Positions 8,094 to 41,329 of a stretch of DNA of 64,000 bases are shown piece by piece. The stretch is from Leptolyngbya boryana PCC 6306 (GTDB lineage: Bacteria; Cyanobacteriota; Cyanobacteriia; Leptolyngbyales; Leptolyngbyaceae), in assembly GCF_000353285.1 (NCBI RefSeq), contig NZ_KB731324.1, positions 80,577 to 144,576 of the forward strand, given 5' to 3'. The stretch's first letter is position 1. Each line of letters begins with the position of its first letter. The notes beneath the pieces were generated by a model. The model made no database searches. It had not been told where the DNA came from and worked only from the letters and a program-made list of their open reading frames with translations. The position numbers were made by a program, and so were the translations under genes.

Positions 8094-8144
8094 ATCTCAG
8101 GAAAATCTGTAGAAATTATCAGGTCATATTCATCTAATTCTCAG
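8094..8144 (+). promoter_or_regulatory. Phased 11-bp repeat array upstream of msrA
   Basis: Heptamers related to TTCTCAG recur exactly every 11 bp: ATCTCAG (8094), ATCTGTA (8105, weak), TTATCAG (8116), TATTCAT (8127) and TTCTCAG (8138). The array ends 58 bp before the msrA ATG. Direct repeats on one face of the helix are typical sites for OmpR/PhoB-class response regulators. The rest of the 7804-8201 intergenic region shows no gene, only AT-rich sequence. Confidence 0.6.
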
Positions 8145-8201
8145 GCAAGTCGTGCAAGATAAACACTATCCCGAACATACCTGACAGAGAATGTTAATGA
8201 T

Positions 8202-8963
8202 ATGAGATATCAACCGCTTTCGTGGATTCGCCCTTTAATACTTGCTTCCTCTGTCGTGTTGCTTGCCGCGATCGCGATCTCACTCAGTAGCCGAATAACG
8301 CTCCGAACGCCGTCTTTCAATTCAAGTCTTCCATCCGACACCAACTTTGTTGCACTTCCTGATCCAGAGATCGATATTGCTGTTCCAAGCAACCTAAATC
8401 AGCAGACGATCGTGCTAGCAGGTGGATGTTTCTGGGGAATAGAAGCAATCTTTGAGCAGTTAAAGGGAGTTTCTCAGGTCGTGTCTGGCTATTCAGGAGG
8501 AAGTGCTGAAACTGCAACTTACAGCCAAGTTAGTTTAGGTAAAACGCAACACGCAGAGGTTGTAAACATCACCTACGATCCGACTCAAATCTCCTACGGT
8601 CAACTGCTGAAAGTTTACTTTGCTGTCGCACATGATCCGACTCAACTGAACCAGCAATTGCCCGATCGTGGCTCTCAATACCGATCTGCCATTTTTTTCA
8701 CAACTCCTGAGCAGCAACAGGTTGCACAGGCTTATATTCAGCAGCTCGATCAAGCGCAGTCCTTTCAAAAACCGATTGTAACTCAAGTTGTGCCTTTGCA
8801 GAAATTCTATGCGGCTGAAACTTATCATCAGGATTTCGTCCAGCATAATCCGAACTATCCCTATGTCGTAGTTCATGATTTGCCCAAGCTTAAACGACTT
8901 GAGAAGCAGTTTCCTGAACTCTATCGAGATCGAATCAAGCTATCCAGCTTTTATTCGAGGTAA
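8202..8963 (+). CDS. msrA: Peptide-methionine (S)-S-oxide reductase, membrane-anchored
   Basis: MsrA reduces the S-epimer of methionine sulfoxide in proteins. This 253-residue protein carries an uncleaved-looking N-terminal membrane anchor (residues about 11-30) and a linker, so the catalytic domain should face the periplasm. The active-site motif GGCFWGIEA holds Cys76, and the downstream GYSGG and QHAEVV motifs are intact. Cys76 is the only cysteine, so it lacks the resolving cysteines of most MsrA and must be reduced by an external thiol. The TlpA-like protein encoded at 19.2 kb is a candidate. glk begins 5 bp after its stop, making msrA the first gene of a pentose-phosphate operon. Confidence 0.95.
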   Translation: MRYQPLSWIRPLILASSVVLLAAIAISLSSRITLRTPSFNSSLPSDTNFVALPDPEIDIAVPSNLNQQTIVLAGGCFWGIEAIFEQLKGVSQVVSGYSGGSAETATYSQVSLGKTQHAEVVNITYDPTQISYGQLLKVYFAVAHDPTQLNQQLPDRGSQYRSAIFFTTPEQQQVAQAYIQQLDQAQSFQKPIVTQVVPLQKFYAAETYHQDFVQHNPNYPYVVVHDLPKLKRLEKQFPELYRDRIKLSSFYSR

Positions 8964-9499
8964 ATGCCGTGATCATCCTAACCGGAGATATCGGAGGGAC
9001 AAAGACAATTCTGCGCTTCTCAGAAGTTACTTCACAATCGTCCCAAATTTTATGTGAAGGTCGATATCGCAGTCGAGATTTTTCAGATTTGACTGAAGTG
9101 ATTTCCAAATTCTCAGCAGAAGCGATCGCAAAGCTGAATCGACCGCTCAGAGCGGATGCAGCTTGTTTTGCGATCGCAGGACCTGTGATCAACAATACGT
9201 CACATCTCACAAACCTCGGCTGGATTTTAGAAGTGTCTCGCCTGACTCAAGAAACGGGCATTCCAAATATTGCGTTGATCAACGATTTTGAAGCCGTCAG
9301 CTATGGATTACTTGAGCTTACTCAGGCTGATTTATCTACGATTCAAGTCGGGCAATCAAGACCTTGCGCACCAATTGCAGTCATTGGTGCAGGTACTGGC
9401 TTAGGAGAAGGCTTTTTGCTCCATCATACTAGGAGCAACCGTCAAGTCTATGCTTCAGAAGGTGGACATGCAGACTTTGCTCCACAAACTGAACTAGAA

Positions 9500-10340
9500 G
9501 GTAGTGTTCTAGATATGTGGATATATGGCAGAATGAAAACGATGTGTTAGAGGGCTGAGTCGAGATGGTCCTAGAACCTGTTCAATGTCCCGATTGCCAG
9601 AGTGTGGATGTCGTTAAGCATGGTCGCAGTGCTGCTGGAAAACAACGGTATTGTTGCCGTAACTTAGAGTGTTCGAGACGATCATTTATCTTGAACTTTA
9701 GCTATCGAGGACGACTGCCTGAAGTCAAAGCGCAAATCAGCGACATGGCAATCAACGGCAGTGGTATTCGTGATACCGCCAGAGTGTTGAAGATTAGCCC
9801 AACGACTGTGATTGAAACGACTGAAAAAAAGTCAAGTCAACTTGAACAAGTAAACATAAGTCTGCTCGAACAGCACCAACCGGATAACACGGCAGTCATG
9901 GTCGTCAGAGTCGAGGCGGCGGAGATGGACGAGATGTGGAGTTTTGTCGAGTCAAAGCAGCATCAACGATGGTTGTGGCACGCGATTGACCATCAAACTG
10001 GAAAAGTCCTTGCCTATGTGCTAGCCACCCATGAAGACTCAGCTCTTAAGCAACTTCAGCAACTGTTAGCTCCTTTTTCGATTCAACGGTTTTACACCGA
10101 TAGTTGGGGAGCTTACTTGCGATTGCTAGATGAGCAGCACCATACGGTTGGCAAAGCCAACACACAGCGCATTGAGCGGAAACATCTAACTTTGAGAACT
10201 CGGATCAAGCGGCTTGCCAGAAAGACGATCTGTTTTTCCAAGACTGAGAAGATGCATGATACTGTGATTGGATTATTCATCAATCGTCATGAGTTCGGGC
10301 GAGCAGTATAACGTTATGCCCACACATCTAGAACACTACC
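9500..10340 (+). mobile_element. IS1-family insertion sequence, complete, in glk
   Basis: The element is 841 bp with terminal inverted repeats beginning GGTAGTGTTCTAGAT; 20 of the first 21 bases match between the ends. It is flanked by an 8-bp direct duplication AACTAGAA at 9492-9499 and 10341-10348. One transposase frame fills most of it. Perfect target duplications, intact repeats and an intact transposase point to recent, probably still active, transposition. A solo copy of one end appears at 41330. Confidence 0.93.
9565..10311 (+). CDS. IS1-family transposase (InsA and InsB in one frame)
   Basis: This 248-residue transposase joins an InsA-like part and an InsB-like part without the ribosomal frameshift used by classical IS1. 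The InsA part has a zinc-ribbon with CPDCQS and CCRNLEC and a helix-turn-helix about residues 50-90. The catalytic part has the acidic motif EMDEMWSFV, the second aspartate in YTDSWGAY, and the C-terminal ERKHLTLRTRIKRLARK block typical of the family. It is encoded inside the element at 9500-10340 and lies in the same direction as the interrupted glk gene. It appears intact. Confidence 0.94.
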   Translation: MVLEPVQCPDCQSVDVVKHGRSAAGKQRYCCRNLECSRRSFILNFSYRGRLPEVKAQISDMAINGSGIRDTARVLKISPTTVIETTEKKSSQLEQVNISLLEQHQPDNTAVMVVRVEAAEMDEMWSFVESKQHQRWLWHAIDHQTGKVLAYVLATHEDSALKQLQQLLAPFSIQRFYTDSWGAYLRLLDEQHHTVGKANTQRIERKHLTLRTRIKRLARKTICFSKTEKMHDTVIGLFINRHEFGRAV

Positions 10341-10872
10341 AACTAGAATGTCAAATGTTGCAATATCTACTCAAGCGATCTCCAACTCAGCATGTTTCTG
10401 TTGAACAGGTCGTTTCTGGAAATGGAATTTTAGCAATCTATCAATTTCTGCGATATCACACTGGGCTAGACCAACTTCTCCCTGAAGAAGATATCGACTT
10501 AACCTCTAAGATTACTGAAGCAGCGCTGAATGCACAAGACCCGTTAGCAGAGAAAGCATTACAGATATTTGTCAAAGCCTATGGTGCAGAAGCAGGAAAT
10601 TTGGCGCTAAAGCTTTTGCCATATGGAGGTATCTATATTGCAGGGGGGATTGCCGCTAAGATTTTGCCCCTCATGCAAGAGGGAACTTTCCTTAAAGCAT
10701 TTCTTGCAAAAGGCAGAGTGAGTGCATTACTAGAGCAAATTCCTATCCACATCGTCTTAAATCCCTATGTTGGTTTGATAGGGGCCACACGATACCTCAA
10801 GGAAACAATACTTCAGGCTAATTCAAACAATCATTGTTCGCTTATTGATCTAAGCTAAGAGGAATTTTAAGT

Positions 10873-18283: not shown

Positions 18284-18676
18284 ATGTCAAACACTCAGCA
18301 ATCCCTGACCTTGCAAGATATTTATCAATTTTTTCAGGCTCCGCCAGTCATCTTTCTCAATCAGGAGCTAACAGTTTGCTATGTGCTGTCAGTGTTACTG
18401 TCAAAAGGGGAATCTTACGGGGCTGAGCTTGTCCAGAAACTTAGGAATGACCATGTAGGCTACCGACTGTCTGACACAATCTTACAGAGTTCAATACGAT
18501 TTCTAGAACGTGAAGGAATGGTCGTAAGCTATTGGAAGAAGCCAGCAAAACGCGGTCGTCCTCGACGAATCTACCAAGTTGTTTCAGAAAAACAACAGAA
18601 AGCACAAGACCTTGCACAACTATGGCGAGATTATATTGAGAATAAGTCCTCTATTCTCAGCCAATTCTCAGACTAA
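18284..18676 (+). CDS. PadR-family winged-helix regulator
   Basis: This DNA-binding protein has about 130 residues. I choose ATG 18284, 19 bp after the aldolase stop; an open frame continues upstream but overlaps the aldolase gene. The winged-helix segment shows LTVCYVLSVLLSKGESYGAELVQKL, then ILQSSIRFLEREGMV and the basic wing KRGRPRRIYQV, the usual PadR order. It is the last gene of the msrA-glk-tal/pgi-gnd-zwf-fbp-aldolase run and may regulate it. The cyanobacterial clock protein Pex is also PadR-like, but I cannot assign that role. Its last codons contain repeats of the next promoter. Confidence 0.85.
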   Translation: MSNTQQSLTLQDIYQFFQAPPVIFLNQELTVCYVLSVLLSKGESYGAELVQKLRNDHVGYRLSDTILQSSIRFLEREGMVVSYWKKPAKRGRPRRIYQVVSEKQQKAQDLAQLWRDYIENKSSILSQFSD

Positions 18677-18693
18677 ACTCAGCAAATTTTAGG
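18654..18693 (+). promoter_or_regulatory. Phased 11-bp repeats upstream of the MXKDX lipoprotein operon
   Basis: TTCTCAG at 18654, TTCTCAG at 18665, AACTCAG at 18676 and TTTTAGG at 18687 (weak) follow one another at exactly 11 bp. The first two lie inside the last codons of padR. The third starts on the final base of its stop codon. The array ends about 122 bp before the lipoprotein ATG, a longer leader than for msrA. Two of the three strong copies are exact matches to the TTCTCAG consensus. Confidence 0.6.
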
Positions 18694-18814
18694 GCTATAT
18701 TCATGCACAGCTTAGTTTAGTCCCCCATACTCCAAAGAGTAGCAGGTGCTTGAGTGTTTGCCATTCGAGTGAATAGCACAGTTTAGAACTTATATCATAT
18801 GGGTAGTGAAAACC

Positions 18815-19114
18815 ATGAAAACAATTGCTTCTCTGATTATTCTAGCTTCAGTGGGTATGCTTGTCGCTTGCTCCACTCCCAATAGTCAAAAGCCCGCTAC
18901 AACTAACCCAGTTCAGCCTGATGCCATGAAACAAGGCGATGCCATGAAGAAAGATGGTGATGCCATGAAGAAGGATGGTGATGCGATGAAACAGGGTGAT
19001 GCGATGAAGAAAGATGGCGATGCGATGAAACAGGGTGATGCGATGAAACAAGGCGATGCCATGAAGAAAGATGGTGATGCCATGAAGAAAGATGGTGATG
19101 CGACAAAGCCATAG
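18815..19114 (+). CDS. Methionine-rich MXKDX-repeat lipoprotein (MrpX-like)
   Basis: This 99-residue lipoprotein has a signal peptide ending in the lipobox LVAC with Cys19 as the lipidated residue. Almost the whole mature chain is a degenerate repeat, DAMKQG alternating with DAMKKDG: nine DAMK units, then a final DATK. This is the pentapeptide MXKDX pattern. A comparable methionine-rich periplasmic peptide, MrpX of Azospira, is known to absorb hypochlorite and be re-reduced by a YedY-type reductase. The ATG at 18815 is preferred over a GTG at 18806. It heads an operon with TlpA-like, CcdA, cytochrome b and YedY-like genes. The sink role is inferred. Confidence 0.85.
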   Translation: MKTIASLIILASVGMLVACSTPNSQKPATTNPVQPDAMKQGDAMKKDGDAMKKDGDAMKQGDAMKKDGDAMKQGDAMKQGDAMKKDGDAMKKDGDATKP

Positions 19115-22015: not shown

Positions 22016-22053
22016 AATCTAAAACGAACTCCCTCTATATATGAGTAAAGTTG

Positions 22054-23160
22054 ATGAATCGGCTAGGGCAGGTTTCAAATGGGCAGAACAGGCGGAAAAG
22101 GTTTGATTTCGCTTCATTGCAGTTTCGGCTTGCTGTCACTGTAATTGGAATTTGTGCGATCGCAATTGCGATCTATCAGCAATTGAGTCATTGGAGCATT
22201 CAGACTGTGCTGATGATGTACTCCGATCAGTTGACTGAAGCACAATTTCTGACGATCTCTAGTCAGTTGGTCAACCTGAGCTTGATTGTGATGATTGGAA
22301 TGACGATCGCAACTTTAGCAGTAACCTGGCTCTTGTTGCGTCCCGTCAATCAATTGCAGCACTGGATACAGACCACAGCAACAAATTCCCAATCCAATCC
22401 CTTTACAACTAGAGCAATGCCAAGCGAGATTCGAGTCGTTGCTCAAGCATGGAGCGAGACGCTCAGTCAGAAAGCCGCCATCAAGCAGCAGCAGCGGCAA
22501 TTTATTAGCAATGTTGCTCATGAGCTGCGATCTCCTCTCAGTGTGATTTATGGATACCTTCAGCGCACCGTCAAGCGTATTCCTATGTCTCCCAGTCAGG
22601 AAGAGAGCCTGAAAATGGTAACTGAAGAAGCAGAGCGAATGACCCTGATTCTACAAGACTTGATCGATCTTGCAAGAGCAGAGAGCTTAGATGTTTCGCT
22701 TCCTCAAGAGCCTCTGATTCTCAATGAGTTTGTGCGCAATATCGCAAATATGCGGGGTAAGTTTGATCATCCGAATATTCAGCTTGAAATTTCGCCGATT
22801 CCGATTCGCGTTCAAGCACGTCGGGATCACCTCATGCAAGTGCTAGATCACCTGATTGAGAATGCGATTCGATATTCTCAACCCGATTTACCAATTGTGA
22901 TCCAGTTAACTCAAGAGAATGGTTGTGCTGTCATTCAGGTGAGCGATCGTGGCGAAGGAATTCCCCAGTCTGATCAAGTGTTGATCTTTGAACCTTTTCA
23001 TCGCATTGATCCTTCGCGCAGTCGAGCCACAGGAGGAACCGGATTAGGACTGGCGATCGTCAAAATTTTAGTTGAGAAAATGGGTGGAACGCTTTCCCTT
23101 GATTCTGAACCCGGCATAGGTACGACCTTCATTGTTACGTTACCCATGCTACGAAATTGA
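22054..23160 (+). CDS. Membrane sensor histidine kinase of the stress island
   Basis: This kinase of about 368 residues has two membrane spans (residues about 25-42 and 73-95) enclosing a short periplasmic loop of roughly 30 residues. A HAMP-like linker follows, then a HisKA domain with His156 in ISNVAHELRSPLSVIYG and a HATPase domain (ENAIRYS, DRGEGIP, GTGLGLAIV). The loop contains two adjacent methionines (VLMMYSDQ). E. coli HprS, which controls msrPQ, senses hypochlorite through methionines, so a similar mechanism is possible but unproven. The ATG at 22054 is preferred over the TTG at 22051. It converges on the OmpR-type regulator gene, its likely partner. Confidence 0.9.
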   Translation: MNRLGQVSNGQNRRKRFDFASLQFRLAVTVIGICAIAIAIYQQLSHWSIQTVLMMYSDQLTEAQFLTISSQLVNLSLIVMIGMTIATLAVTWLLLRPVNQLQHWIQTTATNSQSNPFTTRAMPSEIRVVAQAWSETLSQKAAIKQQQRQFISNVAHELRSPLSVIYGYLQRTVKRIPMSPSQEESLKMVTEEAERMTLILQDLIDLARAESLDVSLPQEPLILNEFVRNIANMRGKFDHPNIQLEISPIPIRVQARRDHLMQVLDHLIENAIRYSQPDLPIVIQLTQENGCAVIQVSDRGEGIPQSDQVLIFEPFHRIDPSRSRATGGTGLGLAIVKILVEKMGGTLSLDSEPGIGTTFIVTLPMLRN

Positions 23161-23175
23161 GCAAAGAGGATTGAT

Positions 23176-23219
23176 TATGATTCATTGACTATGATTCATT
23201 GACTATGATTCATTGACTA
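23176..23219. repeat. Three tandem copies of a 14-bp unit between convergent genes
   Basis: The unit TATGATTCATTGAC is repeated exactly three times from 23176 to 23217, and a fourth partial copy runs into the regulator gene. The last copy supplies part of the regulator's stop codon. The array fills almost the whole 56-bp gap between the convergent kinase and regulator genes. It is probably a slippage-derived array; copy number may vary between strains. Confidence 0.85.
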
Positions 23220-23891
23220 TGATTCTCGGATAACATAGCCCACTCCACGTACGGTATGAATGATGCGTGTTTCACCTTGCTGCTCGAGTTTTAATCGCAA
23301 GTACCGAATGTAGACTTCAATCACGTTTGAATCCCCGCCAAAATTGTATCCCCAGACGTTTTCCAAAATCTGCTCTTTCGTAAAAACCTGTTGAGGATTC
23401 TGCATTAAGTAAGCGAGAAGATCAAATTCTTTGACCGTTAAATCGATTAAGCGATCTCCCCGTAACACTTGATGAGTCAGTCGATCCAATTTTAGCTCAC
23501 CTACTTGCAAGATATTTTCATACACTTCTTGAGTTCGGCGAAGATGAGCACGAATTCGTGCGAACAGTTCTTCTACACTAAACGGCTTTGTAATATAATC
23601 ATCTGCTCCAGCATCTAGTCCATCAACTCGGTCTTCTACTTCATTTTTTGCTGTCATCATGATGATTGGAATCTTGATTCCTGTGGTTCTCAATCGGCGG
23701 CAAAGTTCTATCCCAGACAGTCCCGGTAGCATCCAATCCAGAATGGCAAGATCTGGCAGAGATTGCCGTGCAATAGCAAGTCCAGTCATCCCATCGTGGG
23801 CTGTACTGACCTGATATCCTTCATTACTTAGCTCAAGTGAAATAAATTGTGCAAGTGCAACTTCATCTTCGACTAAAAGAATATGCGCCAT
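23217..23891 (-). CDS. OmpR/PhoB-family response regulator, probable island regulator
   Basis: This 224-residue regulator has a receiver domain with the acidic pocket VEDE near residue 8, phospho-acceptor Asp52 (AILDWMLPG) and lysine in DDYITKPFS, then a winged-helix DNA-binding domain (VKEFDLLAYLMQNP, NVIEVYIRYLRLKL, VRGVGYV). The ATG at 23891 is preferred over an upstream TTG at 23903. The adjacent kinase at 22054 is convergent. Four phased repeats of the TTCTCAG type lie 52-91 bp upstream of its start on its own strand, suggesting autoregulation. The same repeat array precedes many genes in the window, which makes this protein the best candidate to bind them. Confidence 0.93.
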   Translation of the reverse strand: MAHILLVEDEVALAQFISLELSNEGYQVSTAHDGMTGLAIARQSLPDLAILDWMLPGLSGIELCRRLRTTGIKIPIIMMTAKNEVEDRVDGLDAGADDYITKPFSVEELFARIRAHLRRTQEVYENILQVGELKLDRLTHQVLRGDRLIDLTVKEFDLLAYLMQNPQQVFTKEQILENVWGYNFGGDSNVIEVYIRYLRLKLEQQGETRIIHTVRGVGYVIRES

Positions 23892-23942
23892 AGCGGTAAA
23901 CAATAAGCTGCTATCACTAGGAATTGAGCATAGAATATAAGC

Positions 23943-23982
23943 CTGAGCTATATCTGAAAGAATTCTGAAAACAAGCTGAGAA
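23943..23982 (-). promoter_or_regulatory. Four phased 11-bp repeats upstream of the OmpR-type regulator
   Basis: Read on the minus strand the heptamers are TTCTCAG (23982-23976), TTTTCAG (23971-23965), CTTTCAG (23960-23954) and AGCTCAG (23949-23943), each 11 bp from the next. The array ends 52 bp from the regulator's ATG, and -10-like hexamers TATTCT and TATGCT lie just beyond it. It is the most regular array in the window and implies autoregulation. Confidence 0.65.
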
Positions 23983-24031: not shown

Positions 24032-24060
24032 TTCTCATTGTTTTCTCAGGCAAGCTTTAT
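24032..24060 (+). promoter_or_regulatory. Phased repeats upstream of msrB
   Basis: TTCTCAT at 24032 and TTCTCAG at 24043 are 11 bp apart, followed in phase by a weaker GCTTTAT at 24054. The exact TTCTCAG copy ends 59 bp before the ATG at 24108. The array faces away from the one serving the divergent response regulator, so the two genes share a 216-bp intergenic region with two separate arrays. Confidence 0.55.
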
Positions 24061-24107
24061 CGAATTTAAACCTTCACTTCAGAAGTTTCTCAGTCCTGAA
24101 TAGTTCA

Positions 24108-24623
24108 ATGTACGAATCCCCGAACGACCGAACGATGAAGAGACGATATTTTGTGCAAGCAGGTTTAGCGCTTGCAGGAACCGTTTGGGTATCCCATACC
24201 CTCCGCCAGAATCCAAAAAATATGCCAGAACGCTCATTTGAAATCATCAAAACTGAAACAGAGTGGCGCAATCTGCTAACACCAGAGCAGTTTTATGTCC
24301 TCCGCAAGCATGGCACAGAACGAGCAGGAACAAGCCCACTTGATAAACAGTACAGCAAGGGAAGCTATGTCTGTGCTGCCTGTAAACTTCCGCTCTTTAC
24401 TTCAGAAACAAAATTCAATAGTGGAACAGGGTGGCCCAGTTTTCACACGCCGATTGCAAATGCGATCGCGACATCACCTGATTATACGATTTCTATTGCT
24501 CGCACAGAAGTTCATTGTCGTCGCTGTGGTGGGCATCTGGGGCATGTATTTCAAGACGGGCCTCGACCTACAGGTAAACGCTATTGCATCAACGGAATTG
24601 CATTAGATTTTATTGCAGGATAG
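24108..24623 (+). CDS. msrB: Peptide-methionine (R)-S-oxide reductase, exported
   Basis: MsrB reduces the R-epimer of methionine sulfoxide. The 171-residue protein has a twin-arginine-like N-terminus (MKRRYFVQAGLALAGTVWV) that should export or anchor it. Two zinc-binding CXXC pairs are present (Cys89/Cys92 and Cys137/Cys140) and the catalytic cysteine is Cys160 in RYCINGIAL. The usual resolving cysteine is not evident, so an external thiol donor is needed, as for the membrane-anchored MsrA. The first ATG is at 24108; an internal ATG at 24135 would begin exactly at the signal and is also plausible. It is divergent from the response regulator. Confidence 0.94.
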   Translation: MYESPNDRTMKRRYFVQAGLALAGTVWVSHTLRQNPKNMPERSFEIIKTETEWRNLLTPEQFYVLRKHGTERAGTSPLDKQYSKGSYVCAACKLPLFTSETKFNSGTGWPSFHTPIANAIATSPDYTISIARTEVHCRRCGGHLGHVFQDGPRPTGKRYCINGIALDFIAG

Positions 24624-25736: not shown

Positions 25737-25931
25737 CTGTCTGGATCGAGGAATCGGTTCTTGCATCTTGGATTATGCCGAATCTGAGCGAGAAGTCAGG
25801 TGCATCGGTATTTTACAACGATTTAGCGATCTAGATAATCGGGATACAAATTTACTCTGACACTACCGTGGCTTGGAGACTGAATGTGAAGCCTTCCAAT
25901 ATGAGAATCTGCTGAAAATCACCTAAGAATT
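25737..25931. other. Intergenic stretch without a recognisable gene
   Basis: After the Rieske oxygenase stop, one frame stays open for about 40 codons (25737-25860, ending in ...LLTGA-type stop context) without a start codon or a family I recognise. It may be the tail of a deleted gene. The remainder leads into the phased repeats of the next promoter. Confidence 0.3.
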
Positions 25932-26039: not shown

Positions 26040-26837
26040 ATGCGACTTGATGGAAAAGTTGCTTTAGTTACAGGCAGCAGTCAAGGGATTGGGCAAGAAA
26101 TTGTTCTACATTTAGCAGCAATAGGAGCAGATGTGGTAATCAACTATCGATCTCATCCAGAAGGCGCTCAAGAAACGCTAGAAAAAGTTAATGCGATCGG
26201 AGGAAAGTGCTATCTTGCGGAATGTCCGCACTCACAAGCGTATTCAATTCAAGCTGATCTCGGTAATGTTGACATGGTGCGAGAATTGATTACTGAGAGC
26301 ATTGAGCATTTTGGCAAGCTAGATATTTTGGTCAACAATGCTGGAATTGAGAAACATGCTCCCTTCTGGGAAGTTACGGAAGCAGAGTATGATGCGGTGA
26401 TGAATGTTAACTTGAAAGGCGTTTTCTTTGCTACGCAAACTTTTGTGCAGCATTTAATCGAAACAAACCGTCCTGGGAAAGTCATCAACATTAGCTCTGT
26501 CCATGAAGAATTGCCCTTTCCCAACTTTACAGCTTATTGTGCTAGTAAAGGCGGAATGAGAATGATGACTCGTAATCTAGCAGTTGAGCTAGGTGCGCTT
26601 GGGATTACGATTAACAATGTGGCTCCTGGTGCGATCGAGACTCCGATCAACACACAGCTTTTGAACAATCCTGAAAAATTACAGGCATTGCTGAACAACA
26701 TTCCATTAGGGCGGTTAGGGCACCCTCAAGATGTTGCATCTTTGGTCGCATTCTTGGCATCTGAAGACGCAAATTACATTACGGGCAGCACATTTGTGGT
26801 CGATGGTGGATTGCTTTGGAACTATCAGGAGCAGTAG
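26040..26837 (+). CDS. SDR-family oxidoreductase (glucose dehydrogenase-like)
   Basis: This 265-residue classical SDR has TGSSQGIG at residues 12-19, NNAG in the middle and the catalytic YCASKGG. The sequence is close in style to bacterial glucose 1-dehydrogenases, but the substrate cannot be read from motifs. A GAGG motif lies upstream of the start. The FMN reductase gene begins one base after its stop. It is the first gene of a seven- to eight-gene same-strand run that ends at 32838 and starts behind a phased-repeat promoter. Confidence 0.88.
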   Translation: MRLDGKVALVTGSSQGIGQEIVLHLAAIGADVVINYRSHPEGAQETLEKVNAIGGKCYLAECPHSQAYSIQADLGNVDMVRELITESIEHFGKLDILVNNAGIEKHAPFWEVTEAEYDAVMNVNLKGVFFATQTFVQHLIETNRPGKVINISSVHEELPFPNFTAYCASKGGMRMMTRNLAVELGALGITINNVAPGAIETPINTQLLNNPEKLQALLNNIPLGRLGHPQDVASLVAFLASEDANYITGSTFVVDGGLLWNYQEQ

Positions 26838-32845: not shown

Positions 32846-32906
32846 TTCTCATCTTTTTCTCAGTAAACGTTTATCTAACTCAAGCTTCTCTTCAGACGAC
32901 TCTCAG
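32846..32906 (+). promoter_or_regulatory. Phased repeats upstream of the first DUF2808 gene
   Basis: TTCTCAT (32846) and TTCTCAG (32857) are 11 bp apart; a second pair, TCTTCAG (32889) and CTCTCAG (32900), is also 11 bp apart. The downstream sequence CGTTTAATnAnACTCAAGCTT-like is shared with the second DUF2808 gene's leader at 39250-39290, suggesting a common core promoter. The gap between the two pairs is not a multiple of 11. Confidence 0.55.
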
Positions 32907-32994
32907 ACAGACAGCGTTTAATCATACTCAAGCTTCAAGTCAATCCCGAATTTGACGAGGCGCAATCTACTTCTAATTTTATGGAGATTTGATC

Positions 32995-33729
32995 ATGCTA
33001 TTTCAGAAATTGGCAATCAGTACAATGTTCGCGATCGCTACAGCAGTCAGCACACAATCTTCAGCTTTTTCTCAAACAACGTTCAAGAACCCGACTCATC
33101 CCTACCTTTCGGAAATCGGCACTGCTCAAACAACTATCTCGCATCAACCCTCTCAGAGCCAATTTAAGAATTCCACCCACCTCAGATTGTCTGAAATTGG
33201 CACCTCTAGCTCGATGCAGTCTCCGATGACCCAAATGGTCGAGGCTCCAATGAGCCAAGCTCCACTGAACAATGGACAAACTTACTTCTCTCATTCCCCT
33301 CAGTTAGTTCGTGTTCATGCTTCTCAAACCCAAGCCTATACTCCATCGACCTATGAGTTTACTTTGACTGTTCCTGCTAATGCTGGACAGTCTTTGAAAG
33401 CAGTTCGGATTGCTCAAGAACGAAATTTGGGCACAGTGAAATTTGATGCGAGCAGAAGTAAAGCATTTGCAGGAGAACGATTTGCAGCAGGAGCGGAGAT
33501 TCCTCTGGCAAGTGTCGGTGGTGAGAAGCCTGCTCCTGGGGAAGCTACGATCGTATTTGATCAACCCGTACAGCCTGGTAGCACAGTGACGGTTGCACTT
33601 GAAGCGAAGGCTAATCCAGAATTTGGAGGCGCTTATGAATTTGGAGTGACCGCATTTCCGGCAGGAGACAACGGGGTAGGTCAATTTTTAGGTTTTGGAC
33701 GAATCAATCTCTATAGTGGTGGTGAATAG
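32995..33729 (+). CDS. DUF2808 secreted protein, copy 1
   Basis: This protein of about 244 residues has a Sec signal peptide (MLFQKLAISTMFAIATAVST) and a C-terminal DUF2808 domain starting near residue 115 (YTPSTYEFTLTVP ... FGVTAFPAG). DUF2808 proteins are cyanobacterium-specific, exported and of unknown function. The region between contains degenerate repeats with LSEIGT and NSTHLRLSEIG. The ATG at 32995 has GGAG upstream and is preferred over a TTG at 32989. A paralogue lies at 39346. Both share promoter layout, so the duplication includes regulatory DNA. Confidence 0.9.
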   Translation: MLFQKLAISTMFAIATAVSTQSSAFSQTTFKNPTHPYLSEIGTAQTTISHQPSQSQFKNSTHLRLSEIGTSSSMQSPMTQMVEAPMSQAPLNNGQTYFSHSPQLVRVHASQTQAYTPSTYEFTLTVPANAGQSLKAVRIAQERNLGTVKFDASRSKAFAGERFAAGAEIPLASVGGEKPAPGEATIVFDQPVQPGSTVTVALEAKANPEFGGAYEFGVTAFPAGDNGVGQFLGFGRINLYSGGE

Positions 33730-33756
33730 ATATGATTTGAGACAAGTGCTTAACTG

Positions 33757-33786
33757 AAGCTCTGCTGATCGCGATCAGCAGAGCTT
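33757..33786 (+). terminator. Perfect 30-bp palindrome after DUF2808 copy 1
   Basis: AAGCTCTGCTGATCG and its exact reverse complement form a 30-bp uninterrupted palindrome 27 bp after the stop codon. RNA from it would fold into a stem of 13 bp with a 4-base loop, followed by TTTCC. This is a plausible intrinsic terminator, although the T-tract is short. Confidence 0.55.
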
Positions 33787-33949
33787 TCCAGGCATCATTT
33801 AGCCCTCATTCTGTACGAAAGCTCATTTGTTGTGATAGCGATCGTCGTGGCTAAAAACCAGTGAATAAAGATTTGCTGAAGAAATATAAATGCACTTCAA
33901 TAAACGCAGCTATTATCCAAACTGCCGATCTGGATAAAATGCCGTACAG

Positions 33950-34075
33950 GGGTGTTACACAGATCCCTGTCTGCCTAATCATTCAATTCTGGGATGTTAT
34001 ACAGATCTTCGTCTGTACAATGTGCTGATTTAGGGCGTTATACAGATTTGCGTTCGGATAACGTGCTGAATGTAG
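33950..34075. repeat. Three imperfect tandem repeats of about 42 bp
   Basis: Copies begin at 33950, 33991 and 34033 with GGG(T/A/C)GTTA(C/T)ACAGAT and share a second half (TCTG, then TGCTGA or similar). Unit length is 41-42 bp. They occupy the otherwise empty 452-bp space between DUF2808 copy 1 and the AlbA_2 gene. No palindromic unit or unique spacers are present. The remaining intergenic sequence shows nothing else recognisable. Confidence 0.6.
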
Positions 34076-34181
34076 AAAGAGCTAGATCTGTCTAAAAATA
34101 ATTTCGACGTACACCTCTAAACTACGATTCAACACTGTAAGCTGATACAGAGGCTAATCCGTGGGAAGCAAAATCAATTAA

Positions 34182-35348
34182 ATGAAAACTCAACTACTTG
34201 AAAGCCTGCTTTACGAAGAAGAAAGTCCAACGCTTGACTTTAAAAAAGAGCAATATCCATTCTCAAAGGCAACTGAGGAAGAGAAGTCTGAACTTGTTAA
34301 GGATATTCTAGGATTCGCAAACGCATGGCGAAGATCCGAGGCGTACATCTTGATTGGAGTAGAGGAAATACGCGGAGGGAAAAGTAAAGTAATAGGAATA
34401 CAAAATCATCTCGATGATCATACCCTTCAGCAATTTATCAACAACCTCACTAATCAGCCAGTTCGCTTTCATTACGAAGCCGTAGCTATTGAGGACAAGC
34501 AAGTAGGTGTTATTCGAATTGAACAGCAGACAAGACCAATATATCTTAAAAAGAAATATGGAAAGCTGGATAAAGAGAAGGTCTACGTGAGGAGAGGAAG
34601 TTCAACCGATCCAACAAAACCGGCTACTTTGGAAGAAATTGCACAAATGAGGGTGGGTCCTGAAGAGATTGACGCTAATCTTGCGGTTGTATTTTCCAAC
34701 CCAGATACTGAGGAGCTAATTGGCTCACACTTATCAATTGAAGCTGAATTATGCAACTTGCCGTCATCTTATAGCATCCCATCTTTGCCTGATCCGCCAA
34801 AAAATTCCTATGGACTTGGTCCAATATCAATGTATAGGACAAACCATCAATATTACCGTGAGTTAGCTCGCTATATTTTTATATGCAAGCTATTTCGTCC
34901 AGCTCGACTATCTATCTCAAATATTGGGCGTGTCGCCGCACGGAATGTTAGAGTCGAGTTCTCAGTTGACTCTTTAATGCAGATAGAGATGCTTGAAAAG
35001 AAAGATCTTCCTAAAATGCCCGAAAAACAATCTCTCGGCCCTGACCTAAGTAGAATGAGATTTAACAGACCTAAGACACCAGGGAGTGTATGCATCAATC
35101 AAGCGGCTAACCAACTAACTGTTGAGATTGATTGTGGAGATCTACAGCCAGGGAGGAGAGTGTTCTCTGATGTCTTCTACATCGGTAAGAAAACCGAAAA
35201 TCGCGATAATCTTGTCGGAGCAGTTTATGCCGATAATCTTCCTTACCCCTCTGAGCTGACTCTTACAATATCTGCTTCACTAAGCGAGTCTTCTCTGACA
35301 ATAGAAGATTTGATGTCTGTGGGGCAGACTAATTTTTTCAAAATCTAG
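34182..35348 (+). CDS. Schlafen-like AlbA_2-domain protein
   Basis: This 388-residue protein has an N-terminal AlbA_2 (Schlafen-type, formerly AAA_4) domain: ESPTLDFKKEQYPF, then LVKDILGFANAW and YILIGVEE, with YVRRGSSTDPT near residue 145. AlbA_2 proteins are implicated in nucleic-acid binding and appear in some defence contexts. The C-terminal 230 residues are not recognised. Its base composition lacks the many GCGATC motifs of neighbouring genes, hinting at horizontal acquisition. It stands alone, preceded by 42-bp imperfect repeats, and has none of the island's promoter repeats. Confidence 0.82.
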   Translation: MKTQLLESLLYEEESPTLDFKKEQYPFSKATEEEKSELVKDILGFANAWRRSEAYILIGVEEIRGGKSKVIGIQNHLDDHTLQQFINNLTNQPVRFHYEAVAIEDKQVGVIRIEQQTRPIYLKKKYGKLDKEKVYVRRGSSTDPTKPATLEEIAQMRVGPEEIDANLAVVFSNPDTEELIGSHLSIEAELCNLPSSYSIPSLPDPPKNSYGLGPISMYRTNHQYYRELARYIFICKLFRPARLSISNIGRVAARNVRVEFSVDSLMQIEMLEKKDLPKMPEKQSLGPDLSRMRFNRPKTPGSVCINQAANQLTVEIDCGDLQPGRRVFSDVFYIGKKTENRDNLVGAVYADNLPYPSELTLTISASLSESSLTIEDLMSVGQTNFFKI

Positions 35349-35519
35349 AGTCAGACTAACGTCGAACAACTATGTTGCAGCGATTGGTATCAAGATCTTG
35401 GTTGGACTACAAAAGTTACTAGCCGCCACTGATCACGAACGTTATCTGATTAGTTCCTCAGCGATCGCAGTATCTCACAAGCCAATAAACGAGATTTTGA
35501 TTAATGCGATCGCACTTCT

Positions 35520-35807
35520 TCATACAAATCGTGTCTGCTGCATTTCTCTTGCTGTGTAATCCGCCCAACTCTCTCCAGAATTTTTGCCCTTGTACGCTTC
35601 ATAACTTTGGGTGAAAAACTGGCTGATTTGCTGAACTGTTATCTCCTGTTCCAACAATTCACTTAAGCCATTCTGAACCACATATTCAGCATACCAGTCT
35701 GCCCAATCCTGGTCATACAGACCTTTCAATACGCTTTGTTCATAGTCGTGATGTGCTTGACCTGCCTGCGTTAATAGTAATGCAATTGCTGATGTTTTCG
35801 TTTGCAT
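35520..35807 (-). CDS. Small conserved-looking protein, unknown function
   Basis: This 95-residue soluble protein is predicted largely helical (SAIALLLTQAGQAHHDYEQS, LLEQEITVQQISQFFTQSYEAYKG). It has no signal peptide, membrane span or cysteine. I cannot assign a family. It is divergent from the small secreted protein gene at 36003. Its promoter has the most convincing layout in the window: three phased repeats followed by a TATACT hexamer 21 bp away. This links it to the stress regulon despite its unknown function. Confidence 0.75.
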   Translation of the reverse strand: MQTKTSAIALLLTQAGQAHHDYEQSVLKGLYDQDWADWYAEYVVQNGLSELLEQEITVQQISQFFTQSYEAYKGKNSGESWADYTAREMQQTRFV

Positions 35808-35834
35808 GATATCGTCTTGAACTCAATTCGTTTT

Positions 35835-35890
35835 AGTATATCGATCGATGCTTCAAGCATTCTGAGTCAAAGCTGAGAAAAGACTGAATA
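35835..35890 (-). promoter_or_regulatory. Phased repeats and -10 box upstream of the 35520-35807 gene
   Basis: On the minus strand TATTCAG (35890-35884), TTCTCAG (35879-35873) and GACTCAG (35868-35862) are spaced 11 bp apart. A TATACT hexamer (35840-35835) follows 21 bp after the last repeat, so the repeats overlap the expected -35 region. The array ends 55 bp from the ATG. This is a typical OmpR/PhoB activation layout. Confidence 0.65.
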
Positions 35891-35912
35891 AAGTAAAATA
35901 TCGTTCTACCTT

Positions 35913-35952
35913 TACTCACTAAATTCTCAGCTAATCATCAACGGATATTCAG
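35913..35952 (+). promoter_or_regulatory. Phased repeats upstream of the small secreted protein gene
   Basis: TACTCAC (35913), TTCTCAG (35924), TCATCAA (35935) and TATTCAG (35946) lie at 11-bp steps and end 51 bp before the ATG at 36003. They are 23 bp from the oppositely oriented array serving the divergent gene, so one intergenic region carries two back-to-back arrays. Confidence 0.55.
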
Positions 35953-36002
35953 CCGCATCGTTCATTCTAGGAAGCAGTTCAATCATTAATGAAGCAATTC
36001 CT

Positions 36003-36365
36003 ATGAAACGTCAACTCATTGCAGGATTATCTGTTTTACTGCTATCTGCTGTAACCACAACGGCTACCCATGCTGAAACTCGAATCGAGCAAGAACTCAG
36101 TATGATTCAGTTGGTGCCAAGCCAAGTCCTGAACAACACGCTCACGCCGAGTGATCTAGCAAATTTAGCTTATCGCGGCTATTTACGCGATCAGGGAATT
36201 TCGAGCTACAGCCAACTGATCTATGATTACAAAGCTGGGCGAGTTCACGCAAAAGATATTGTTCAAGCGGCAATTGTTACAAATCGACTGCCTGCTAGCA
36301 CTTTGAATGATCGGGGTTATCTCAATGCTGTGAATCTTCAAATCTCTGGAATTGATAGCCACTAG
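36003..36365 (+). CDS. Small secreted protein, unknown function
   Basis: This 120-residue protein has a Sec signal peptide (MKRQLIAGLSVLLLSAVTTT, probable cleavage after AHA near residue 24). The mature part contains no cysteine and shows a two-helix pattern (LTPSDLANLAYRGYLRDQG, SYSQLIYDYKAGRVH). It resembles small exported cyanobacterial hypotheticals, but I cannot name a family. The GH63-type gene begins 41 bp downstream and may be co-transcribed. Its promoter carries phased repeats shared with the msr genes. Confidence 0.78.
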   Translation: MKRQLIAGLSVLLLSAVTTTATHAETRIEQELSMIQLVPSQVLNNTLTPSDLANLAYRGYLRDQGISSYSQLIYDYKAGRVHAKDIVQAAIVTNRLPASTLNDRGYLNAVNLQISGIDSH

Positions 36366-36406
36366 ATTACTTCGCGATCGCTCACTTTTCATCAAGGTAC
36401 TAAACC

Positions 36407-39064
36407 ATGACTGTTCCAACTCAAGAAGAACTTAGATTGGAAGCTGCTCGAACCCACAAAGCTCATTGGCGCAGATGGGGATCTTATCTCAGCGATCGAC
36501 AATGGGGGACCGTTCGCGAAGATTACAGTTCGTCTGGAACTGCCTGGGATTACTTTTCTCATGATCAAGCGCGATCGCGTGCTTATCGTTGGGGTGAAGA
36601 TGGTTTATTGGGAATTTCAGACAATCATCAACGACTATGTTTTGCGATCGCGCTGTGGAATGGAGCCGATCCGATTTTGAAAGAACGATTGTTTGGACTT
36701 ACCGGAAACGAAGGGAATCATGGCGAAGATGTCAAAGAGTACTATTTCTACTTGGACAACACGCCAACTCATTCCTACATGAAAGCGCTGTACAAATATC
36801 CACAAAGCACTTTCCCTTACACGCAACTCGTTAAAGAAAATCAGCATCGAACTCGCCAAGAGCCAGAATTTGAACTCCTCGACACAGGCATATTTGATCA
36901 GCAGCGCTACTTTGACGTGATGGTTGAATATGCAAAGCAGGATGCTGAAGATATTCTGATTCAAATTAAAATCACCAATCGTAGTTCCGAAACAAAGCCT
37001 ATTCATGTCCTTCCAACCCTGTGGTTTCGGAATACTTGGTCTTGGACTCAAGATAGTTCAAAGCCCTCACTCAAAATTGTGCGCTCGAATCATACCTATG
37101 ATGTAATCGAAGCAGATCATCCAACCCTCAACAAGCGATGGTTGTACTGTGAGAAAGGTGAAGGATTACTTTTCACAGAAAACGAAACTAATAATGAGAG
37201 AATCCTGAGTTCCCCGAATCATTCTGCTTATGTCAAGGATGGTATCAATGATTATATTATTCATGGCAATGAGGAAGCCGTAAACCCAAATAAAATCGGC
37301 ACAAAAGCAGCCGTACACTATCAATTGATCATTCCAGCCCATGCGACTCAAACAATTCAATTACGGCTCAGCGATCGTGCAAATTTAACGACTCCTTTTG
37401 CTGATTTTGATGCGATTATCAGAGCTAGACAACAAGAAGCTGATGAATTCTACCATCGCATTACACCCTTTGCACTGAGCGATGAGATGCGAAATATCCA
37501 ACGTCAAGCTTTTGCTGGAATGCTCTGGAGCAAGCAATACTATCATTACAGTGTAGAAGAGTGGCTTAAAGGCGATCCGATTGCTCCTGCGCCTTCAGAA
37601 CGTAAACAGGGGCGCAATCATGAATGGTTCCATCTCCATACAGATGATATTCTTTCGATGCCTGACACGTGGGAATATCCTTGGTTCGCAGCTTGGGATC
37701 TCGCATTTCATTGCATTCCACTTGCGATGATTGATCCGGAGTTTGCGAAGCATCAGCTAGATATTTTGACGCGGGAATGGTACATGCACCCCAATGGACA
37801 AATTCCAGCTTATGAATGGGCATTCGGTGATGTGAATCCGCCTGTTCATGCTTGGGCAACTTGGCGTGTGTACAAGATTGAGCAGAAAATGTATGGACGT
37901 AGCGATCGCGTTTTCTTAGAGCGCGTGTTTCAAAAGCTTTTACTGAATTTTACTTGGTGGGTGAATCGCAAAGATGTAGAAGGGAGAAATATCTTTCAAG
38001 GTGGATTTCTGGGACTCGACAATATTGGAGTGTTCGATCGTAGTGCAACACTTCCAACGGGTGGTCACATTGATCAATCCGACGGCACAAGTTGGATGGG
38101 AATGTATTGTTTAAATTTACTTGCGATCGCACTTGAACTTGCTCAAACCAATCCAGTCTATGAAGACATTGCAACCAAATTCTTTGAACATTATCTCTAC
38201 ATTGCTGATGCAATGAATCGTATTGGAGAAGCAGAAACTTCACTATGGAATGAGACCGATGGATTCTACTACGATGTTCTACATTTACCGAATGATCAGC
38301 AGATTGAATTGAAAGTGAGATCGATGGTCGGGCTGATTCCTTTATTCGCGATCGAAACATTAGAGCCAGAAACACTTCATCAATTACCTGCTTTTAAGAA
38401 GCGGCTAGAATGGGTTATTCAACATCGTCCTGACTTGAGGCGTAATGTGGCTTGTATGGAGACACAAGGGATGCAGGCTAGGAGATTGTTAGCGATCGTG
38501 TCTCAAGACAAACTTCGACGAATTTTACAGAAGATGCTGGATGAAACTGAATTTCTCAGTTCTCACGGAATTCGCGCCCTCTCGAAACATCATGCTACCC
38601 ATCCTTATACGTTTGATGTGGATGGAACACAGTTTCGAGTAGACTATGAACCTGCTGAATCTAGCAGTGGTTTATTTGGAGGAAACTCGAATTGGCGGGG
38701 AACGGTTTGGTTTCCAGTCAATTTTTTACTGATTGAGTCACTGCAAAAGTTCCATCATTACTTAGGCGATGATTTCAAAGTAGAATGTCCAACTGGATCA
38801 GGGCAATGGCTAAATCTTTGGGAAGTTGCTTTAGAACTCTCACATCGGCTGATTCAGATTTTTCTTCAAGATCCATCTGGGCGACGACCTGTCTATGGGG
38901 CAACAGAGCTTTTTCAAACTGATCCAAATTGGCAAGATTTGATGTTGTTTTATGAATATTTTCATGGAGACAATGGAGCTGGAATTGGAGCCAGCCATCA
39001 AACCGGATGGACAGGATTAGTTGCAAAACTGATTCACCAGATTAGCCAGTATGCAGATGGTTAA
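36407..39064 (+). CDS. GH63/MGH1-like glucosidase-family protein
   Basis: This 885-residue cytosolic protein belongs to the glycoside hydrolase 63 (mannosyl-oligosaccharide glucosidase-like) clan with an (alpha/alpha)6 barrel. The N-terminal half begins with [20 protein letters not shown]-type sequence. The barrel contains [19 protein letters not shown] and the conserved [21 protein letters not shown] around residues 425-490, and the C-terminal half has [16 protein letters not shown]. Bacterial members hydrolyse glucosylglycerate, mannosylglycerate or similar compatible solutes; the substrate here is not determined. It has no signal peptide. It follows the small secreted protein gene by 41 bp. 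Confidence 0.88.
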
Positions 39065-39193
39065 CTGTCTTACAGTTAAGAGATTCGCAATCAAATCAGA
39101 TCCCTATGCTTCGTTGCTCACCCGCCCCCGGAATAGAATCCAAGGGTAACAGAACAATGTGCTGTGATTCAGATAGTAACGACTGCGTGAGAT

Positions 39194-39289
39194 TTCTCAG
39201 CTTCTTCTCAGGAAAGACTTAGCACATTCGACGTTTTTTCCTCATACGACTCTCAGTTTCACCTCGTTTAATTAGAGTCAAGCTTTCAG
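39194..39289 (+). promoter_or_regulatory. Extended phased repeats upstream of DUF2808 copy 2
   Basis: TTCTCAG (39194), TTCTCAG (39205) and GACTTAG (39216) are 11 bp apart. After a one-base phase shift, TCCTCAT (39239) and CTCTCAG (39250) follow, and CTTTCAG (39283) lies three 11-bp steps further on. The last copy ends 57 bp before the ATG at 39346. Two exact copies in tandem make this one of the clearest arrays. Confidence 0.6.
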
Positions 39290-39345
39290 AAGTTCACTTC
39301 ACTTAACTGAAACCAGAACCTTTCATTTCACAAGGAGATTTGACG

Positions 39346-40071
39346 ATGCTATTTCAAAGACTTGCACTCGGAATGATGATCGCGATCGCTGCAACCATCA
39401 GCACCCAACCCTCAGCCTTCTCGCAAACTAACGCCAGCAACCCAACACACACCCGGCTCTCTGAAGTTGGCACATCCCCAACCTTTTCCTTGCATCCACC
39501 TACTCACAGTCAATTTAAGAATTCGACTCAGCCCAGGCTCTCTGAGATTGGAATGTCAACAATGATGCCTACACAGATGACTGAATCCCAAATGGCTCCA
39601 GTCCAGTTCAGCGGCGGGCAAGCTTTTTTCTCGCATCCCCCTCGCCTCATGCGCGCTTATACGTCTCAATCGCAAGCTTACGTGCCATCGACTTATGAGT
39701 TTACTCTGGTTGTTCCCTCGGATGCAGGACAGGCGCTCAAAGCAGTACGAATTGCTCAAGAGCGCAACTTAGAAACCGTGAAATTTGATGTCGGCAGAAG
39801 CAAAGCATTTGCAGGTGCTCGATATGCAAGCGGTGCTGAAATTCCTTTGGCGAATGTTGGAGGAGAATCGGTTCCGGGTGAAGCTACGATCGTGTTTGAT
39901 CAACCTGTTCAACCTGGAAGTACAGTCACTGTTGCCTTAGAAGCAAAATCAAATCCAGCTTCTGGTGGAATCTATGAGTTCGGAGTCACTGCTTTTCCAG
40001 TTGGAGAACAGAGTATGAGCCAATTCTTAGGATTTGGACGGCTCAATTTCTATACGGGTGGGGCGCAATAA
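39346..40071 (+). CDS. DUF2808 secreted protein, copy 2
   Basis: This protein of about 241 residues is a close paralogue of the one at 32995. It has the same signal peptide style (MLFQRLALGMMIAIAATIST), the same degenerate LSEVGT/LSEIGM repeats and a C-terminal DUF2808 domain (YVPSTYEFTLVVPSDAGQ ... FGRLNFYTGG). The ATG at 39346 follows AAGGAG and is preferred over an upstream TTG. The two genes are about 6 kb apart with unrelated genes between, so this is a dispersed rather than tandem duplication. Function unknown. Confidence 0.9.
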   Translation: MLFQRLALGMMIAIAATISTQPSAFSQTNASNPTHTRLSEVGTSPTFSLHPPTHSQFKNSTQPRLSEIGMSTMMPTQMTESQMAPVQFSGGQAFFSHPPRLMRAYTSQSQAYVPSTYEFTLVVPSDAGQALKAVRIAQERNLETVKFDVGRSKAFAGARYASGAEIPLANVGGESVPGEATIVFDQPVQPGSTVTVALEAKSNPASGGIYEFGVTAFPVGEQSMSQFLGFGRLNFYTGGAQ

Positions 40072-41231: not shown

Positions 41232-41273
41232 ATTTTGATGTCTACTATGCTGAAAGAAGCTTCTCTTTGGAGC

Positions 41274-41302
41274 TTCTCAGCAAATTCTCATATCTGTCTC
41301 AG
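41274..41302 (+). promoter_or_regulatory. Orphan phased repeat array next to IS debris
   Basis: TTCTCAG (41274), TTCTCAT (41285) and GTCTCAG (41296) are spaced exactly 11 bp apart. No gene starts within the expected 51-60 bp downstream. Instead an IS1-like end begins at 41330. The array looks like the surviving promoter of a regulated gene that was lost when insertion sequences landed here. Confidence 0.55.
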
Positions 41303-41329
41303 CTTTCCCTGGGCTTAGGTCGTGAAATG

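Follow-up and report, generated by a model that had tools for sequence, protein, structure and literature searches.

Two DUF2808 genes of Leptolyngbya boryana share a conserved repeat leader that may serve as the operator-promoter of a PhoP/NblR-like response regulator

The closest described operators are the PhoP box and the PHO box. PhoP recognizes 7-bp TCACAGC motifs that are separated by exactly 4 bp, and in the crystal structure Asn212, Val213, Glu215, Ser216, Tyr217, and Tyr220 make the base contacts, according to the excerpt of PMC4832192 used here. The E. coli PHO box is given as two 11-nt direct repeats in a passage of PMC4415409. The closest described gene sets are MrpX-YedYZ and BcrXQP, oxidant defense systems that pair a Met-rich peptide with MsrP/MsrQ, and part of PMC8315932 describes the comparable operon of Brucella as induced by hypochlorous acid. 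As for DUF2808 proteins, Anabaena All7597 is named in an exoproteome section and Synechocystis Sll0470 is assigned a predicted membrane segment, each in an excerpt of one of PMC10957091 and PMC6560206.

We analyzed a stretch of 64,000 nucleotides from Leptolyngbya boryana PCC 6306 (contig NZ_KB731324.1, positions 80,577 to 144,576; here called the window). It contains two DUF2808 genes on the plus strand, gene A (ATG at 32995, stop at 33729) and gene B (ATG at 39346, stop at 40071), which score 143.7 and 143.6 bits against Pfam PF10989 (cutoff, 25.3 bits). The whole genome has nine PF10989 matches, and A and B are the only ones in the window, as an earlier note on this DNA had said. The signal peptides and LSEIGT repeats described there are also present: both proteins have a signal-peptide-like N terminus, two degenerate copies of NxTxxxLSE(I/V)G(T/M), and an Ig-like DUF2808 domain in the same arrangement, with 69% protein identity. 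The structure model of DUF2808 has a mean pLDDT of 65.8, with residues 7 to 90 below 50 and a beta-sandwich from about residue 100. Fold searches with the model returned the common Ig-like sandwich. The solved beta-sandwiches TTHA1873 (Z 10.6, rmsd 3.1, 133 aligned) and YcnI (Z 10.0, rmsd 3.0, 116 aligned) resemble it, but their identity is 10 to 13% and many unrelated Ig-like folds reach 8 to 9; by sequence, no solved-structure relative was found up to an E value of 1. The linker is methionine rich, with four (A) and five (B) Met in 30 residues. This is not obvious in the orthologs of two related genomes, G029 and G009, and we therefore place no weight on it.

The leaders of A (32846 to 32937, plus strand) and B (39188 to 39286, plus strand), about 92 to 98 bp each, consist of CTCAG/CTTAT half-sites, mostly 11 bp apart, and a TTTAAT box at the end. 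Leader A has half-sites at 32848 (CTCAT), 32859 (CTCAG), 32870 (TTTAT), 32891 (TTCAG), and 32902 (CTCAG), in steps of 11, 11, 21, and 11 (offsets 0, 11, 22, 43, and 54), and 10 nt after the last one follows the −10-like TTTAAT at 32917 to 32922. In leader B they are found at 39196 (CTCAG), 39207 (CTCAG), 39218 (CTTAG), 39241 (CTCAT), and 39252 (CTCAG), in steps of 11, 11, 23, and 11 (offsets 0, 11, 22, 45, and 56), again with 10 nt before TTTAAT at 39267 to 39272. The earlier note had reported phased repeats and a shared segment at both genes, and the alignment bears this out. The common segment, CGTTTAAT...TCAAGCTT, is the −10-like box with the bases after it, and the local alignment of the leaders scores 50, whereas 2000 shuffles of one leader averaged 16.6 and never exceeded 37. 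For the 150 nt directly preceding each leader, the same comparison gives a score of 17. Tandem Repeats Finder reported neither leader. A sigma-70 promoter scan of both leader regions found none; it is blind to TTTAAT, because it requires the second hexamer to have A as its second base.

Arrays of this kind are concentrated around the locus. We built a half-site matrix from seven arrays with 22 half-sites; one of these arrays precedes a divergent DUF2808-like gene, and the promoters of A and B were excluded. Fourteen clusters scoring at least 16 were found in 84 kb (the window and 20 kb before it) versus none in 400 kb from 20 other sites of the genome, and 50 column-permuted matrices gave 0.22 clusters on average and at most 3. 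Training arrays lie in five of the 14 clusters; the other nine have none, and the leaders of A (17.7) and B (26.3) are among these nine. The strict pattern CTYAG-N6-CTYAG-N6-CTYAG matches exactly at four places in 7.26 Mb, and three of these fall in a 43-kb stretch around the A/B locus. With at most one mismatch the triple matches 16 times in the genome and its reversed control 14 times, so that the relaxed form says little by itself and it is the clustering that counts. The genes beside the clusters include those for MsrA, a Met-rich repeat ORF, the response regulator, an SDR gene, and two small ORFs in the window, and outside it a CelA-like gene, a small GGDELRR ORF, and two divergent DUF2808-like genes.

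The array before msrA (8202 to 8963; PMSR, 202.5 bits) lies at 8118 to 8150 on the plus strand and scores 24.6. The strongest array of the island (37.1; 18656 to 18688, plus strand; used in training) precedes a Met-rich ORF (18806 to 19114) and TlpA/CcdA-like genes with Redoxin and DsbD_TM matches. This ORF is small, lipoprotein-like, and made of DAMKKDG/DAMKQG repeats, without an NCBIfam or a convincing Pfam match; its homologs in other genomes also have arrays. The gene of methionine sulfoxide reductase B (SelR; 24108 to 24623, plus strand; PF01641, 160.6 bits) has a leader of the same type at 24032 to 24095 on the plus strand, in which the TTTAAT part is absent and which reaches only 10.3 with the half-site matrix. 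An array between a Rieske gene and the SDR gene (26040 to 26837) occupies 25899 to 25927 on the minus strand (23.3); the SDR gene heads a plus-strand run that extends to a glyoxalase gene and gene A. Two more stand before a 95-aa ORF (35520 to 35807, minus strand; array at 35862 to 35888, minus strand, 30.4, used in training) and before a small secreted ORF (36003 to 36365, plus strand; array at 35926 to 35958, plus strand, 19.7). The stress-type arrays that the earlier note had seen at A and B are of the same kind as those at MsrA, MsrB, and the Met-rich ORF. The regulon also takes in genes without an obvious oxidant role, such as the glycosyltransferase-like gene.

Several gene names used here are our own presumptions: we take the gene with Pfam FGE-sulfatase/DinB_2 to be EgtB-like, that with Methyltransf_33 to be EgtD-like, and the cytochrome b561-like gene to be MsrQ-like; RclC is presumably a DUF417 protein; and MXKDX-like, CelA-like, NDH-2, DoxX, EamA, Crp, and NtrB are likewise presumed names. 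A strong array (29.0; 41265 to 41308) lies just after the EgtD-like gene with no clear gene behind it and transposase-like ORFs next, as if the gene behind it had been displaced. A glucokinase-like frame (8969 to 10858) appears, judged by eye, to be split by a transposase-like ORF (9565 to 10311). Small secreted ORFs with a GGDELRRYFFGDLEP stretch (locus L026, 11363 to 11749; L027, 4284 to 4685), which have no NCBIfam or Pfam match, stand beside arrays in many genomes of the family.

The candidate array binder is a response regulator of the OmpR/PhoB type (23217 to 23903, minus strand), with a receiver (Response_reg, PF00072, 106 bits) and a winged helix (Trans_reg_C, PF00486, 102.5 bits). Before it lies an array of four half-sites (23953 to 23980, minus strand; 29.1 and 26.5; used in training), a candidate for autoregulation. 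A histidine kinase gene (22051 to 23160, plus strand; HisKA and HATPase_c) is convergent with it, and between the two genes a 14-bp repeat occurs four times (23170 to 23225). The closest NCBIfam model is NblR (NF045914; 278.3 bits, cutoff 300), and PhoB (TIGR02154; 256.5 bits, cutoff 296.2) and HprR (NF008567; 184.2 bits, cutoff 353) also stay below their cutoffs. PhoP and MtrA are the closest solved chains. Five of the six PhoP contact residues listed in the excerpt of PMC4832192 are kept (N, V/I, E, Y, and Y, with the same spacing), and Ser216 of PhoP is Val here. Two paralogs (contig 1, 67354 to 68019 and 344560 to 345231) share the helix DSN(V/I)IEVY(I/V)RYLRLKL with this regulator, and each is accompanied by a kinase and by arrays at a distance of up to about 2 kb or in the same island. 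As far as sequence can tell, the leader is most likely an operator-promoter of the island's regulator and its two paralogs. A receiver-only, shortened relative of the regulator (L026, 15659 to 16066) also has an array in front (20.3), and it has relatives in G020 and G023.

We investigated the distribution of arrays and regulator in 42 genomes of the family. A YTCAG triple was found in 23 of them, with 48 matches versus 12 for the reversed control (in nine genomes). Regulator orthologs (E value of 1e-90 or lower) occur in 31 of the 42 genomes. The triple is present in 21 of these 31 versus 2 of the remaining 11 (one-sided Fisher P = 0.006, with genomes treated as unrelated) and absent from 10 of the 31. 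At the regulator loci (107 kb), 11 of 30 have an array of at least 16. Homologs of island genes stand beside 20 of 28 array loci of the relatives and not beside the other 8; they include GGDELRR, Met-rich, TlpA, CcdA, CelA-like, MsrB, kinase, and regulator genes, among others. A tighter version of the pattern, CTCAGN5ACTCAGCNNTTTCTCAG, occurs in 7 of 388 genomes of the class, all seven in the family, and is absent from the window's own genome. In G001 (contig 4, 59736 to 59850), about ten nearly identical TTCAG units follow each other in 11-bp steps with no island gene nearby.

The leader recurs together with the N terminus of the protein. We made an N-terminal profile (signal peptide and NPTHPxLSE(I/V)G) from seven proteins: A, B, two from G029, and one each from G032, G033, and G009. 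Searched against the 42 genomes, it returned all seven source proteins below 1e-20, as expected by construction, and a new, weaker match in a short exported protein of G015 (3.4e-6); the best match in the class outside the family was 4.5e-4. Further matches (about 1e-6) covered the signal-peptide portion of three DUF2808 genes, one each in G035, G038, and G039. These have no array, so that the signal peptide can occur without the leader. In an alignment of the leaders of the seven genes and the G015 gene, 22 columns are invariant. The windows for the model were anchored on the TTTAAT-like box, and an unanchored 215-nt alignment gives the same columns. When 501 kb of this genome was searched with a model of the six leaders from other genomes, leader A ranked first (E value, 3.5e-14), leader B second (2e-9), and the MsrB promoter third (2.2e-6), with a fourth match at 0.027. 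The eight-leader model found nine matches below 1e-14 in the 42 genomes, the eight themselves and a new one in G015 (9.5e-17). After these came the MsrB leader of the window (7.3e-9), a partial match in G011 (2e-6) for which no ORF was found, and one in G019 (2.9e-4) that precedes a short exported ORF. The leader type is conserved in nine strong leaders from six genomes and is partly shared with the MsrB promoter. With the array matrix, the leaders of G029 (short), G009, and G033 score only 6.0, 5.6, and 10.5.

The proteins behind these leaders differ in their C-terminal part. The leader-bearing protein of G033 is a spondin-domain protein by NF038123 (134.4 bits, cutoff 40), and with Pfam Spond_N it reaches 19 bits, below the cutoff of 24. 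Behind the new G015 leader lies a gene whose product begins with a comparable signal peptide and carries a spondin domain that shares 86% identity with the G033 domain. At an E value of 1e-10 or lower, the 42 genomes yield three spondin genes; all three have the leader, and each adjoins an HbpS-like homolog (109 bits with Pfam HbpS-like in G032). In G033 the spondin gene stands behind a glyoxalase gene, the position of DUF2808 gene A in the window; no glyoxalase gene was present in the examined stretches of G032 and G015. The order in G029 is EgtD, DUF2808, and MsrB on one strand, and the DNA before the leader there resembles the end of a glyoxalase gene. Judged from these comparisons, the information-carrying unit is the leader with the export module, not DUF2808. 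We infer that the leader, the signal peptide, and the LSEIG module stay together as a cassette in which the cargo at the C terminus has been exchanged (DUF2808, spondin domain, or short tails).

The earlier note had proposed a scan of DUF2808 promoters in other cyanobacteria for the array. In a start-independent recount at the loci of the 42 family genomes, 8 of 94 DUF2808-type ORFs (one of them doubtful) have an array of at least 14, and the array is not a property of the family. Besides A and B, the array-bearing genes are the two divergent DUF2808-like genes just outside the window (L026, 10170 to 10694 and 14888 to 15382; 22.3 and 19.6 bits, below the PF10989 cutoff), one each in G020 and G023, both related to the second divergent gene, the G029 ortholog, and one gene of G001. 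A count of 96 ORFs included three N-terminal-only matches and the doubtful ORF and missed G009, a count of 92 drops those four, and the count of 94 includes the doubtful ORF (L034) and G009; all three give eight at this threshold. Eight is a lower bound for leader-like DNA, since the matrix misses weak leaders such as that of the G009 ortholog, which is below the array threshold and has a leader by the leader model (5.2e-17). The start codon of this G009 gene (L031) and the rest of its signal peptide are in different frames, by a real break or an assembly error. Of the 21 ORFs with a DUF2808 at least 50% identical to that of A or B, 17 have no array. Of 14 loci from named genomes, only L213 scores (18.1), and its start is uncertain. 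Arrays occur in two separate DUF2808 lineages, the A/B-like one and three of the four ORFs nearest the second divergent gene, itself counted. The idea that DUF2808 belongs to envelope oxidant defense remains plausible for the A/B subgroup by its neighbors, MsrA, MsrB, EgtB-like, and EgtD-like, and is not supported for the family as a whole. Since the same leader and N-terminal start are found on spondin proteins and arrays on so few DUF2808 ORFs, the hint is limited to one exported subgroup in one regulon.

The leader is probably an activator-dependent promoter, on which a PhoP/NblR-like regulator would occupy the array in response to an envelope oxidant or redox signal, with exported proteins controlled together with repair genes. 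Leader anatomy, conservation, gene set, and co-occurrence are the sequence basis for this proposal; binding, activation without a −35 element, the oxidant signal, and the place in the envelope are what we infer from it. Tandem dimers of the regulator, or of the two paralogs with nearly the same recognition helix, would bind the array, replace the missing −35 element, and recruit RNA polymerase, and the neighboring kinase would report the signal. The controlled genes would then yield exported proteins. The DUF2808 proteins A and B, each with a signal peptide, a flexible LSEIGT linker, and an Ig-like beta-sandwich, would probably act in the envelope beside methionine sulfoxide repair (MsrA, MsrB, and an MsrP-like pair), TlpA/CcdA-like thiol chemistry, and ergothioneine-type synthesis. 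The oxidant signal is the weakest link; it is suggested by the gene set (MsrA, MsrB, MsrP-like, TlpA/CcdA-like, EgtB- and EgtD-like, and the DUF417 protein).

Recent duplication could make two leaders alike with no further cause, and A and B do share one genome and 69% of their protein sequence. However, their coding DNA is 70% identical and their 85 fourfold sites only 38%, versus 65% for the leaders (107 columns), which argues that the leader is under selection. A and the G029 ortholog agree (39% at fourfold sites and 68% in the leader), as do six pairs overall (27 to 39% and 60 to 68%), and the leader recurs on spondin genes elsewhere. We rejected duplication, which appears extremely improbable; on these identities the likeness is due to selection, not recency. 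An RNA element of the 5′ untranslated region would also be conserved and lie 5′ of the coding region, as the leader does. Against this, Rfam gave no match up to an E value of 0.1, the eight-leader alignment has no consensus pair, and the conserved part consists of direct repeats; this reading, too, was rejected as very improbable.

Whether the arrays report a role of the entire DUF2808 family in envelope oxidant defense depends on the census. Their presence in two separate lineages would fit, but with so few ORFs marked, most close relatives of A and B unmarked, and one uncertain case among the named-genome loci, we rejected the notion that DUF2808 as such is array marked, and the family-wide role seems improbable. 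The same operator and regulator might instead serve another signal, such as phosphate, light stress (as for NblR), a metal, or general envelope damage, with the repair genes as part of a broad set. The regulator is indeed closest to NblR, PhoB, and PhoP-type proteins, and arrays also stand at the CelA-like glycosyltransferase, small secreted ORFs, and an NDH-2-like gene. The concentration of MsrA, MsrB, MsrP-like, and TlpA/CcdA-like genes in the island speaks against it, and we consider another signal rather unlikely.

In one cyanobacterial family, the leader and export module may act as a portable induce-and-export cassette, in which a stress operator is fused to an export signal and unrelated domains of envelope proteins have been swapped in behind them. 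Such a cassette would deliver its cargo to the oxidized envelope and would belong to a two-component regulon, so far undescribed, that has three paralogous regulators. We put this forward tentatively, as a reading that could well go either way. A domain that changes behind a fixed promoter and export tag would provide a clear example from nature of regulation that moves together with targeting. The open-licence literature that we searched contained no description of such a regulon. For apparent envelope oxidant repair in one cyanobacterial family, the island offers a regulator, an operator, and a set of genes that can each be tested, and it ties to this regulon one exported subgroup of DUF2808, a family without known function.

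Like the PhoP box, the array consists of direct half-sites in 11-bp steps, TCTCAGC plus 4 bp here and TCACAGC plus 4 bp in the PhoP excerpt, a difference at one base of seven. Unlike the PhoP and PHO boxes, it has three to five half-sites with a gap and serves a different gene set, and its binding is predicted. The gene set resembles MrpX-YedYZ and BcrXQP. The regulator there is an ECF sigma factor, whereas here it is probably a two-component system, and the MsrP-like protein of the island stays under its model cutoff (95 of 207 bits). As in those systems, MsrP-like and cytochrome b561-like genes lie no more than 2.5 kb behind a secreted ORF of Met repeats.
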